Source: Treponema sp.
GTDB taxonomy: Bacteria > Spirochaetota > Spirochaetia > Treponematales > Breznakiellaceae
Reading direction: 5' to 3'
NCBI GenBank assembly: GCA_031255615.1
Contig: JAIRSD010000051.1
Coordinates: 1 to 10,405, forward strand
Length of the DNA stretch: 10,405 bases
The notes under the pieces are model-generated. The model did not search any database and was not told the DNA's origin. It saw nothing but the letters and a program-made list of their open reading frames with translations. The translations under genes were made by a program, and so were the position numbers. Each line of letters opens with the position of its first letter. The stretch's first letter is position 1. Shown piece after piece: positions 1 through 7,298 of this stretch.

Positions 1-47
1 GAGCAGACCCGGCGCGGAGCGCCGGGGCCGGAGGCGAAGCCGGAGCC
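1..47 (-). repeat. Copy 1 of a GC-rich dispersed repeat, cut by the window edge
   Basis: Read on the minus strand, these 47 bases match 3141-3187 (plus strand) with only 3 differences, and they share the segment around CGCGCCGGGTCTGCTC with 1209-1254. The block contains the perfect hairpin GGCGC-GGA-GCGCC at 11-23. It lies beyond the 3' end of the TatD gene and continues out of the window. No protein is needed to explain it, and its presence at three other intergenic sites marks it as a repeat. Confidence 0.8.
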
Positions 48-49
48 CT

Positions 50-108
50 GGCAACCGGAGGTTGCCTTGATAGCCCGGTCCCCGCCGGACCGGGAGGGCC
101 GGCGGGGA
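50..108. other. Two perfect GC-rich hairpins downstream of the TatD gene
   Basis: GGCAACC-GGA-GGTTGCC at 50-66 has a 7 bp stem and a 3-nt loop. TCCCCGCCGG (79-88) pairs perfectly with CCGGCGGGGA (99-108). Both lie 3' of the minus-strand TatD gene, which stops at 186, so they could end or protect its mRNA. Neither is followed by a T-run on the minus strand, so I do not call an intrinsic terminator. Bases 109-185 hold nothing I recognise. Confidence 0.5.
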
Positions 109-185
109 TGCGCCCGTATATCCACATTTACACGCAATACACGGCGTTTTAGCGGCAAGGTCGTCCGGGGCCGCGGGAGGATCGA

Positions 186-1152: not shown

Positions 1153-1280
1153 GGGCGCATTTTTACGCCGCCCGCGCCGCGAAAAACCGGGCTGTCAAGG
1201 CTGATGCAGGCTGCCGGGGTTCCGCTTCGCCCCGGACCCGCGCCGGGTCTGCTCCGCCGCCCCTTGCCCCCTGCGCGGCG
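1153..1280 (+). repeat. Copy 2 of the GC-rich dispersed repeat (about 128 bp)
   Basis: The block begins GGGCGCATTTTT, continues through a GC core to AAAAACCGGGCT, and then contains GGCTGC..TTCGCC..CCGG, CGCGCCGGGTCTGCTCCGC and GCGCGGC. The same landmarks in the same order make up 3091-3212, although the two copies have diverged in the core. Stop-free frames across it are an effect of high GC, as no translation resembles a protein family. It sits between the divergently transcribed TatD and isomerase genes. Bases 1281-1373 continue with short repeated words, including GGCCTTCCGCCGG at both 1300-1312 and 1359-1371. Confidence 0.7.
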
Positions 1281-2047: not shown

Positions 2048-3040
2048 ATGGCACGGCCGGTAACTATTTTTTCAGGACAATGGGCGGATCTGCCCTTTGA
2101 AACGCTCTGCGAAAAGATGAAATCCCTTGGCTATGACGGAATCGAAATAGCCTGCTGGGGGGACCACCTGGACCCCCAAAAGGCGGTCGCCGATCCCGCA
2201 TATATCGAAGGCCGCAAGGCCGTCCTGGCCGCCCAGGGCCTCAAATGCTGGGCCCTAAGCGGCCACCTTATCGGCCAGTGCGTGGGGGACCTCTGGGACC
2301 CCCGGCTCGACGGCTTTGCCCCCGGCCCCCTGGCCGGAAAACCCGAAGAAATCCGGGAATGGGCCGTCGCGGAGATGAAACGCATCGCCGCCGCCGCGAA
2401 ACTCATGGGCGTCTCCGTGGTAAACGGCTTTATGGGAAGCCCCGTCTGGAAGTATTGGTACTCCTTCCCCCAGACCAGCGAGGAAATGATCGACCAGGCC
2501 TTCAAAGACATCGTAAGCCTCTGGTCCCCCATCTTCGACGAGTTTGATCGCCAGGGCGTCCGCTTTGCCCTGGAAGTCCACCCCACAGAAATAGCCTTCG
2601 ACTATTACACCTCCCAGCGGCTCCTGAAAGAGTTCGACTACCGGCCCACCCTGGGCTTCAACTTTGACCCCTCCCACCTCCAGTGGCAGGGAGTAAGCCC
2701 GGTCATCTTCATCCGCGACTTCGCCGACCGGATCTACCACGTCCACATGAAGGACGCCGCCGTCACCCTGGACGGCAAAGCCGGCATCCTGGGCTCCCAC
2801 CTCACCTTCGGGGACACCCGCCGGGGCTGGAACTTCCGCTCCCTCGGCCACGGAGACGTGGACTTCGAAAACATCATCCGGGAACTCAACGCCATCGGCT
2901 ACCAGGGCCCCCTCTCGGTCGAGTGGGAAGACTCCGGCATGGACCGGGACCACGGCGCCCGCGAAGCCTGCGACTTCGTCCGCCGCATAGACTTCCCCCC
3001 CTCGCAAGTAGCCTTCGACAGCGCCCTCAAAAAAGACTAG
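2048..3040 (+). CDS. Sugar phosphate isomerase/epimerase, AP endonuclease 2-type TIM barrel (330 aa)
   Basis: Cytosolic metal-dependent TIM-barrel enzyme of the xylose isomerase-like/IolE superfamily, likely isomerising or epimerising a sugar, inosose or keto-sugar. The exact substrate cannot be read from sequence. The N-terminal strand and helix FETLCEKMKSLGYDGIEIACWGD are typical of this family. Probable metal and substrate ligands are Glu176 in ALEVHP, Asp207 and His210 in FNFDPSH, His231/His233 and Asp236 in YHVHMKDA, and Glu292 in SVEWED, all at the expected barrel positions. The C-terminal GHGDVDFENIIRELNAIGYQG is also characteristic. Members of about this size often accompany Gfo/Idh/MocA sugar dehydrogenases, but none is present here. 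The gene stands alone on the plus strand between repeat blocks and converges on the hemerythrin operon. Codon choice is strongly C-ending. The stop is TAG. Confidence 0.92.
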   Translation: MARPVTIFSGQWADLPFETLCEKMKSLGYDGIEIACWGDHLDPQKAVADPAYIEGRKAVLAAQGLKCWALSGHLIGQCVGDLWDPRLDGFAPGPLAGKPEEIREWAVAEMKRIAAAAKLMGVSVVNGFMGSPVWKYWYSFPQTSEEMIDQAFKDIVSLWSPIFDEFDRQGVRFALEVHPTEIAFDYYTSQRLLKEFDYRPTLGFNFDPSHLQWQGVSPVIFIRDFADRIYHVHMKDAAVTLDGKAGILGSHLTFGDTRRGWNFRSLGHGDVDFENIIRELNAIGYQGPLSVEWEDSGMDRDHGAREACDFVRRIDFPPSQVAFDSALKKD

Positions 3041-3090
3041 GAACGCCGCCCCTCGCGCTCCATAAAGCACAGATTACGGAGCGTCATAAA

Positions 3091-3212
3091 GATAGGGGCG
3101 CATTTTTTGCGGCTCCGCCGCAAAAAACCGGGCTATCCGGGGCTGCGGCTTCGCCTCCGGCCCCGGCGCTCCGCGCCGTGGCTGCTCCGCACCCCTCCTA
3201 TCCCTTGCGCGG
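3091..3212 (+). repeat. Copy 3 of the GC-rich dispersed repeat (about 120 bp)
   Basis: This is the cleanest copy. It opens with GATAGGGGCGCA and the perfect hairpin TTTTTTGCGGC-TCC-GCCGCAAAAAA (3103-3127, 11 bp stem). It continues with CCGGGGC (3137-3143) pairing with GCCCCGG (3160-3166), and then CGGCGC-TCC-GCGCCG (3164-3178). Positions 3141-3187 match 1-47 (reverse) with 3 differences. It lies just past the isomerase stop. The A-run follows the stem on both strands, so the first hairpin is not a usual terminator. Confidence 0.8.
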
Positions 3213-3215
3213 CAG

Positions 3216-3375
3216 GGAGTTTCGCTTCGCGAAACTCCATAAAACCAAAAGGCTGCGCCTTTTGGTCCGGCAGGGATGCCGTCGGCATCCCTGCCGCGGA
3301 CGGGCCTGGGGTTTTTGCTTCGCAAAAACCCGGGAATCCTATCCCCCCGGAGTTTCGCGCTCCCCCGCGAAACTC
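3216..3375. repeat. Array of five consecutive perfect hairpins
   Basis: In 160 bp there are five back-to-back palindromes. GGAGTTTCGC-TTC-GCGAAACTCC is at 3216-3238 (10 bp stem). ACCAAAAGGC-TGC-GCCTTTTGGT is at 3244-3266 (10 bp). A 13 bp stem starting CGGCAGGGATGCC with loop GTC is at 3268-3296. GGGTTTTTGC-TTC-GCAAAAACCC is at 3309-3331 (10 bp). GAGTTTCGCG (3350-3359) pairs with CGCGAAACTC (3366-3375). The first and last share their stem sequence, and four have 3-nt loops. Nothing in the array is coding, and it separates two convergent genes. Confidence 0.85.
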
Positions 3376-3420
3376 AAAAGAACCGCAGGGCGCGGCATTT
3401 TGGTTCCGCCGCCTTCATTC

Positions 3421-3460
3421 GCCCCGGACCGGGGCTTTTGGGCGGGGTATGAGACCCCGC
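3421..3460. other. Two GC hairpins past the end of the hemerythrin operon
   Basis: GCCCCG-GAC-CGGGGC (3421-3435) and GCGGGGT (3442-3448) pairing with ACCCCGC (3454-3460). The second lies 15 nt beyond the minus-strand hemerythrin stop and could mark the 3' end of that operon. There is no T-run on the minus strand. On the plus strand the first is followed by only four T, so a terminator call stays weak. Confidence 0.4.
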
Positions 3461-3474
3461 TGCGAATAAAGGAA

Positions 3475-3984
3475 TTACTGTACGACCAGCCGTTTGGCTT
3501 CCTCGCCCGCTCCGGCGGGGCTTTCTTTTTTTACCTTCATCGTGATGTTATGCAGAGTCCCTTCCCGTTTCAGCTTGATAAGGTACATACCCATTTTCTT
3601 GTCGCATACAGCGATATGGGCCAGGACCCATTCTTTCAGGAACAGAACAAAATCGTCGGCGCTAACCTTTCGGCCCGCCTGGAAATCCTGGACCTGGCGG
3701 AGCACCTCTTTAACAAAATCCGCATGTTCCTTCTTGTGGGCCGCATATTCCGGGTAATTTATCCGCTCCATTATCTTTTCTTCCGTGCCGAAGTGGTAGT
3801 CCACATAATCCACGGCGGCGCGGATGGCGCTCATAAAGGCGGCCTGGGATTTCTCCCAACCCATAGCGCTGGCCTCGTGAAGCCGGTTGCAAATATTGAT
3901 TAACTCCTTATGCTGATCGTCAACAAGGCGGATGCCTACCGAGTATGAATCGCGCCACTCCACAATCCGCTTTTTGGAATTCAT
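3475..3984 (-). CDS. Bacteriohemerythrin (169 aa)
   Basis: Small cytosolic four-helix protein with a non-haem di-iron centre that binds O2 reversibly; proposed roles are oxygen sensing, storage or delivery. All seven expected iron ligands are visible: His25 (VDDQHKELI), His64 and Glu68 (YHFGTEEKIM), His83 and His87 (HKKEHADF), and His123 and Asp128 (WVLAHIAVCDKK). The N-terminal EWRDSYSVGI is standard for the family. The protein runs about 30 residues past the usual end of the domain, with a Lys/Glu-rich tail of no known role. It is the last gene of the minus-strand cluster, starting 2 nt after the synthetase stop, with AGGAGG at 3994-3999 inside the end of the synthetase gene. Cotranscription is therefore very likely. 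In a host from a low-oxygen habitat it may buffer O2, but this is inference. Confidence 0.95.
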   Translation of the reverse strand: MNSKKRIVEWRDSYSVGIRLVDDQHKELINICNRLHEASAMGWEKSQAAFMSAIRAAVDYVDYHFGTEEKIMERINYPEYAAHKKEHADFVKEVLRQVQDFQAGRKVSADDFVLFLKEWVLAHIAVCDKKMGMYLIKLKREGTLHNITMKVKKESPAGAGEEAKRLVVQ

Positions 3985-7135: not shown

Positions 7136-7190
7136 CAGAGGAGGACCCCGCGCTAATGGTCCGGGTTACCCCATAGGGGAATTGGAGCGA

Positions 7191-7248
7191 AGCCTGTTTT
7201 TTTGCGGCCCGCCGCAGGCGGACAGCCGCAAAACATGCGCCCCTTATC
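7191..7248 (-). repeat. Copy 4 of the GC-rich dispersed repeat, 5' part only
   Basis: Read on the minus strand, it begins GATAAGGGGCGCA, forms the stem TTTTGCGGC...GCCGCAAAA and ends AAAAAACAGGCT, matching the opening about 44 bp of copy 3. Between the two stem arms it carries an extra nested hairpin CCGCC-TGC-GGCGG, which copy 3 lacks. It lies between the divergent PHP operon and the tRNA promoter. The rest of 7136-7298 shows no gene. Confidence 0.65.
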
Positions 7249-7298
7249 GATATGCGGCGCTTTCCGCACCGGGAATTGCGAAATTGCCGGCGAGATAC

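Follow-up and report, generated by a model that had tools for sequence, protein, structure and literature searches.

Intergenic hairpins of a Treponema sp. form a composite of two repeats, the first with a core common to filamentous phages and plasmids

The hairpin row between two convergent genes

The window analysed here is a 10,405-nucleotide stretch of Treponema sp. DNA, whose closest protein relatives were found in two Treponema MAGs (L001 and L002, 88% at the amino acid level), with isolate codes that we take to belong to a termite-gut series. An AP_endonuc_2 (sugar-isomerase-like) ORF on the + strand has its 3' end at 3040 and a hemerythrin ORF occupies 3475-3984 on the - strand, which is the convergent order described in the first-pass annotation. 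That annotation had also listed hairpins between these genes with stems of 11, 10, 10, 13, 10 and 10 bp, and all of them were present at the positions claimed and far above the shuffled expectation: six perfect hairpins (stem of at least 8, loop of 2-6) lie in 3041-3475, whereas 500 dinucleotide shuffles averaged 0.14 and never exceeded 3, and the whole window holds 8 hairpins with a stem of at least 9, versus a mean of 0.48 in 60 shuffles. A chance origin was rejected on these counts and on the hairpin enrichment of element-rich relatives, which the annotation had proposed as a check and which bore it out, with 3.8 hairpins per 10 kb in G096 (from contigs of 40-kb scale) versus 1.4 in six few-copy relatives, in a comparison whose shuffles preserve single-base content only and whose G001 and G002 loci were picked around copies. 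Structure prediction against shuffled controls agreed with this, giving DNA folding z values of -4.4 (+ strand) and -4.6 (- strand) for 3096-3210 and of -8.8 for 3211-3440.

The row of hairpins consists of two adjacent repeats, which we call element A (3096-3210) and array B (3211-3375). The palindromes had been described as following one another almost without gaps; this fails for 3128-3215, which contains no perfect hairpin of such size and is the remainder of the same folded element, with imperfect arms and closing stems. Likewise, the hairpins at 3216 and 3350 do share a stem, which is 9 nt long (GAGTTTCGC) and not 10. Beyond this first reading, the locus is a composite of two repeats, of which the first has, as judged by sequence comparison, a core common to phages and plasmids.

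The plan of element A, which applies to 63 places listed (4 of them in the window), is GGGCGCAT, a variable hairpin, ACCGGGCT, further arms and ATCCCTTGCGC. In an unconstrained DNA fold of the window minus strand, hairpin I appeared together with the outer stem and with the inner stem and its mismatch, and modelling shows element A in a predicted closed, multi-branched structure of outer stem, hairpin I, an inner stem interrupted by a C.T mismatch that is conserved, and further arms (Table 1).

Table 1. Positions of element A, its parts and further copies, and of the array B hairpins, in the window
Feature	Position	Strand	Basis and remarks
Element A, full copy, GGGCGCAT ... ATCCCTTGCGC	3096..3210	+ (GNA-loop strand = minus)	Window and relatives' copies; below Rfam Flavo-1 cut-off
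Outer stem, 5' side GCGCA	3098..3102	+	Pairs with 3206-3210; sequence and unconstrained DNA fold, minus strand
Hairpin I, 11 bp, loop TCC (GGA on minus)	3103..3127	+	Variable palindrome, constant flanks in relatives
Inner stem, 5' side GGGCTA	3130..3135	+	Pairs with 3199-3204 across C3133.T3201 mismatch; paired variation, fold
Inner arms of element A, imperfect hairpins	3138..3198	+	Content varies among copies
Inner stem, 3' side TATCCC	3199..3204	+	Paired variation and DNA fold
Outer stem, 3' side TGCGC, element A end	3206..3210	+	Copy comparison and DNA fold
Array B hairpin GGAGTTTCGC-TTC-GCGAAACTCC, 10 bp	3216..3238	+	Same place and GGAGTTT..AAACTCC frame as in G096
Array B hairpin, 10 bp, loop TGC	3244..3266	+	Perfect-hairpin listing
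Array B hairpin, 13 bp, loop GTC	3268..3296	+	Perfect-hairpin listing
Array B hairpin, 10 bp, loop TTC	3309..3331	+	Perfect-hairpin listing
Array B hairpin, 10 bp, loop CTCCCC	3350..3375	+	Perfect-hairpin listing
Second element A copy, degenerate, upstream of isomerase ORF	1153..1276	+	Match over 130 nt (1153-1279) at 72% identity, E 4e-9; 3' end set by eye
Third element A copy, truncated by window start	1..115	-	51 nt (51-1), 92% identity, E 1e-16
Fourth element A piece, strongly degenerate, between PHP-domain ORF and tRNA	7190..7254	-	38 nt, 84%, E 9e-5, plus 18-nt match; limits by eye

Another repeat family in the window has two copies in direct orientation upstream of the isomerase ORF (about 1540-1640 and 1775-1865), each some 85-90 bases long (GTGTTCCCGGCGAGCCGCAGCTCGCC...). 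Beside the hemerythrin ORF, 3440-3474 matches short stretches in G005, G002 and G003; the place of this stretch was not found by motif in three loci.

The first-pass annotation had suggested that the hairpins might block transcription or protect mRNA 3' ends. A bidirectional terminator or 3'-end protector would suit a site between convergent genes, and 3000-3520 contains 7 terminator-like sites versus a mean of 1.1 in shuffles. However, none of the six perfect hairpins is among these sites; at 3103-3127 and 3309-3331 a T run precedes and an A run follows the G+C part, which is the reverse of a terminator, and T follows the hairpin at 3244-3266 only. Moreover, among chromosomal copies of element A for which both neighbours were called (by crude ORF calls), the flanking genes are convergent in 9, divergent in 12 and tandem in 15. 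An intrinsic terminator is therefore unlikely, 3'-end protection is disfavoured by this tally and by the lack of a G.U excess described below, and we regard this explanation as a whole as very improbable.

Dispersal and paired change in related genomes

Searching the genomes of 11 relatives for element A, with at most the best 40 candidates scored per genome, gave matches in 7 of them (at least 41 in G001 and at least 17 in G002). The exact-flank pattern was found in up to 82 of 195 family genomes, an upper figure that takes in single non-palindromic chance hits such as that in G043, and the reversed control gave 2 hits in all; hits numbered 312 in G096, 225 in G001, 138 in G071 and 110 in G122. 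Phylum-wide the pattern was rare (34 of 392 genomes, with 9 for the reversed control), and outside the element-rich genomes about half of this sample shows non-palindromic matches by eye. The full pattern was absent from 12 genomes of mixed phyla and from 97 genomes in the class of a deltaproteobacterial MAG. One locus search gave at least 120 loci among the matches listed, with a stem of at least 4 in 8 of the 80 loci checked.

The second pair of the inner stem, counted in the 84 full copies among 104 Treponema copies, was T-A in 43, A-T in 36, G-C in 2, C-G in 1 and broken in 2; the search pattern fixes the first pair of this stem and not the second. Across the 104 copies 906 of 1006 cells of hairpin I are Watson-Crick, and 35 distinct stems occur among the 75 copies that are perfect up to the loop. 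These comparisons show a putative structure that is kept while the sequence varies. Stem changes between copies were thus mostly paired when the check for stem-breaking as opposed to paired changes, which had been proposed for sister strains, was run on related copies and relatives, and this supports the earlier suggestion of selection for structure or of templated copying that keeps it. The accompanying picture of single, independent palindromes did not survive, as these are arms of two composite repeats.

Array B has counterparts as well. In G096 a second hairpin array comes after the TTGCGC end of element A, and over six of seven such arrays (L176 being left out) 196 of 198 cells are Watson-Crick, with more than one pair type at 8 of 33 pairs. 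The Rfam family TD-2 (RF03162) was found above its cut-off of 48.7 bits in the arrays after element A in L101 and L133 (G001); matches with E of at most 0.001 numbered 63 in G001 and 64 in G096, and in 40 G096 contigs taken whole all 5 hits abut an A end by hand comparison. In contrast, array B of the window (3211-3375), with the same place and the same GGAGTTT..AAACTCC unit, had no TD-2 match up to E 10, and TD-2 is present in G012, G013 and G015, genomes without the A pattern. We found no publication in the open literature linking TD-2 to Treponema denticola. Many elements in L164, L175, L176 and other G096 loci are flanked by a third repeat family, also dispersed (TTTACCGCAAAGTCGAAAAAGTCAAAGAAG and its inverse).

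The chromosomal copies have no fixed relation to genes. Among 77 Treponema copies there was no bias in gene orientation (upstream neighbour +29/-35, downstream +25/-21, the rest having no called neighbour), and 40 of them overlap open frames of 90 codons or more, which we take to be mostly spurious. Nor was there a bias toward GC-skew arcs in one Bacteroidota genome, where a tally by hand placed 12 versus 16 of 30 hits in the two arcs and left out two hits in an unsampled skew transition. Because the chromosomal copies lack both biases, a selfish or neutral palindromic repeat (REP- or MITE-like) is a serious rival explanation. The element would then be functionless, with hairpins that stay perfect through fold-back copying at stable turns, and would be merely carried by phages and plasmids as an insertion. 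The hundreds of copies and their modular arms fit this explanation, as does a site that is not common to the syntenic intergenic region of L001; that region has no element A flanks, which would fit gain or loss and is no proof of transposition.

Dispersed intergenic palindromes at high copy number also recall REP/REPIN sequences and their RAYT transposases. Y1 transposase (PF01797) had 0 matches in the element-rich genomes G001 and G122, despite their 225 and 110 pattern hits, so RAYT is not required and mobilisation of this type was rejected as unneeded in these two genomes; other element-rich genomes do contain Y1 transposase (e.g. 12 in G096 and 29 in G054). Element A further differs in its predicted multi-branched closed fold, REP being single or paired hairpins. 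The Treponema relatives G016, G017, G018 and G019 have 46, 33, 97 and 34 Y1 transposase matches and no A pattern, and may have a REP/RAYT system of their own.

Rickettsia palindromic elements are dispersed palindromes that insert in frame within genes. Element A resembles them in its dispersal and in L252 (and, by sequence, L228), where its position is within an open stretch that extends a methyltransferase-like frame at the N terminus, and differs in that the Treponema copies are chiefly intergenic. By eye, the element at L252:1896-1984 and that in L228 stand immediately before a C5-methyltransferase-like frame, and the one in L252 is in an open frame with it.

Phage and plasmid copies, Flavo-1 and the folded strand

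With the Treponema copy as query, blastn against plasmids and phages gave no match. The fuller pattern matched 42 IMG/VR contigs, and a compact query of the phage form found 117 plasmid records (59 with at least 80% query coverage) and 16 phage records, which include 14 from Pseudomonas phages and one from Pf1. In an alignment of 48 phage and plasmid copies, which leaves out 9 of the 42 viral copies, L228 and 6 of 18 plasmids, 88.5% of cells were paired in a 27-pair structure versus 73.4% in shuffles, a structure drawn by hand from one alignment row, which favours it. The same alignment gave 182 two-sided changes versus 68.5 in shuffles, and sliding the structure along it lowered pairing to 31.6-47.3%. 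Helix 1, the outer stem, was paired in 98.7% of cells and varies in pairs; helices 4, 5 and 8 paired in just 65-78% of cells. The phage and plasmid form has two C.T mismatches in like settings (the inner stem and a GAGCC..GTCTC side arm), perhaps marking a protein contact.

A covariance model (R1) built from the phage and plasmid copies alone found Treponema copies with E down to 3.6e-8, and in the window it matched 3096-3212 (E 4e-4). It matched 9 of 9 element-rich whole genomes and 1 of 6 others, and its best E in 470 kb of other loci was 0.094. Together these matches indicate that the phage, plasmid and Treponema copies form one family. Since the model found just 1 of 30 Bacteroidota loci, the tie to that phylum rests on Rfam and on a common GCT/ATC core.

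That tie is to Flavo-1 (RF01705), which, like TD-2, emerged only when G096 loci were scanned with Rfam. At gathering threshold the window gave tRNA only, a permissive scan gave weak sRNA matches far under their cut-offs (e.g. BTH_s1 with 25.1 of 74 bits), and five phage-contig loci gave no match. Of 31 Treponema copies scanned, 8 exceeded the Flavo-1 cut-off on their GNA strand, with matches among the copies of G096 and G122, comprising 3 of 3 copies in L164 and L183 and 5 of 28 in the remaining sources. Within Bacteroidota, Flavo-1 occurred in 10 of 80 genomes, with up to 51 copies where at most the best 51 candidates per genome were scored; these copies are likewise multi-copy and have closing stems and the GCT/ATC core in common with element A. 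On the other hand, 23 of the 31 copies scanned were under the curated cut-off of 42 bits, as were the element A copies of the window, and Flavo-1 is entered in a table as an RNA of 'Bacteroidetes' (PMC2864571), whereas the element described here extends to Spirochaetota, phages and plasmids and shows signs of acting as DNA. Element A is a spirochaete branch of the Flavo-1 kind, with a core common to filamentous phages and plasmids. We found no published function for the Flavo-1 or TD-2 candidate RNAs in the open literature, nor, by titles and the beginnings of abstracts there, any publication on such a folding element.

The Rfam filing itself, together with the Flavo-1 scores above cut-off and those of TD-2 in L101 and L133, would favour a structured RNA that is transcribed and acts in cis or in trans. 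Selection on the RNA of one strand would be expected to leave that strand with more G.U than A.C pairs. Counts of G.T and A.C were 24 versus 22 of 1281 cells and, in hairpin I of the Treponema copies, 13 versus 18 of 1006 cells, so that neither pair count gave a G.U excess on either strand. The loops of hairpin I are TNC or TNNC in 36 of the 48 phage and plasmid copies, with GNA or GNNA in 0, and in 50 of 75 Treponema copies (19 of the 50 being TGCC), versus GNA or GNNA in 3. TNC/TNNC loops on one strand mean that the opposite strand bears GNA/GNNA loops. UNCG and GNRA are the tetraloop types of RNA, and the loops seen here are instead triloops of a DNA-stable type on one strand. According to one source, GNA and GNNA loops on G+C pairs form exceptionally stable DNA mini-hairpins (PMC4686876). 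In Flavobacterium psychrophilum, a further report places some Flavo-1 hits at 5' transcribed regions, which favours an RNA, and describes the hits as indistinctly sense or antisense, with many beyond transcribed regions (PMC9723704). We therefore consider a structured RNA improbable: the absent G.U excess and the GNA-type loops of one strand argue for DNA. A role of the element as a folded single DNA strand is the inference with the strongest support here and not a demonstration.

Gene context in phages and plasmids is consistent with such a strand. In filamentous phages the coding strand is the packaged strand. All 17 filamentous-phage-like contigs with a Rep_trans- or Zot-family gene (4 of which are near-duplicates and the rest related, with Pfam assignment run on L304 and L316 only) have these genes on the GNA strand of the element, as does Pf1; a distance of about 120-165 nt separates the element from the Rep gene downstream of it in 16 of 16 phage contigs. 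Neither gene is present on 25 of the 42 viral contigs, and in several viral contigs the element is inside an open frame. The viral contig pairs L315/L331 and L326/L337 are alike upstream of the element and different downstream. Of 18 plasmids (typed as 7 conjugative, 2 mobilizable and 9 non-mobilizable), 15 have their first downstream gene, and 9 their first upstream gene, on the element's strand. This fixed orientation and distance to Rep, the mostly single orientation to the next plasmid gene, and a conserved core that retains its mismatch across phages, plasmids and Treponema all count against a functionless repeat, which we hold to be somewhat unlikely.

Proposed role of the folded strand

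The reading that we prefer is that selection would act on a folded single DNA strand bearing GNA-type loops (GCGCAAGGGAT...) and not on RNA. The GNA-loop strand is probably the form present by itself in filamentous phages and in plasmid transfer, where the element would most likely serve as a site at which second-strand priming, or transcription from single-stranded DNA, begins. As for the chromosomes of Treponema and Bacteroidota, the structure may have spread there as a non-coding, orientation-neutral repeat whose arms were swapped or re-copied as palindromes. On balance it seems probable to us that this explains the whole, with a folded single-stranded start signal of phages and plasmids amplified as chromosomal repeats. 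The copy in the window would most likely be a chromosomal repeat of this kind, with no role shown for either neighbouring gene.

The known signals closest to this are Frpo, ssi and other single-strand origins, which are likewise folded, orientation-bound and near early-read genes; the likeness meant here is one of fold, orientation and gene context. psiB is a gene read from a single-stranded promoter, and the genes following the element in 9 of 18 plasmids are psiB (4), DUF3846 (3) and DUF736 (2). Early genes of this sort, as well as methyltransferases, are described for other plasmids as read from single-stranded promoters, Frpo (PMC11541004, PMC7736820). A fixed orientation of the folded strand to early genes or to the packaged strand was found in phages (17/17) and plasmids (15/18), and not in the Treponema copies. 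Unlike these signals, element A showed no -35/-10 pair (0 sigma-70-like sites in 3000-3520 of the window, by a consensus scan of the double-stranded sequence only), and it is far wider spread and chromosomally amplified.

More tentatively, and at a likelihood short of even, Flavo-1-like elements could be a cross-phylum class of folding start signals of single-stranded DNA and not RNAs, lying beside a filamentous-phage replication gene and in probable plasmid entry regions. They would have multiplied unchecked in the chromosomes of Treponema and Bacteroidota, in which each copy would be a potential second-strand start site, which may be how they spread. Flavo-1 was listed as a candidate RNA in 2010 and still has no known function; the tie to phages and plasmids, the fixed orientation and the DNA-type loops turn it into a direct question, namely whether a folded single strand primes DNA or RNA synthesis. 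If this is true, it would account for the abundance of palindromes between the genes of these spirochaetes and would provide a sequence handle on how the single strand of plasmids and phages becomes duplex outside Enterobacteria.
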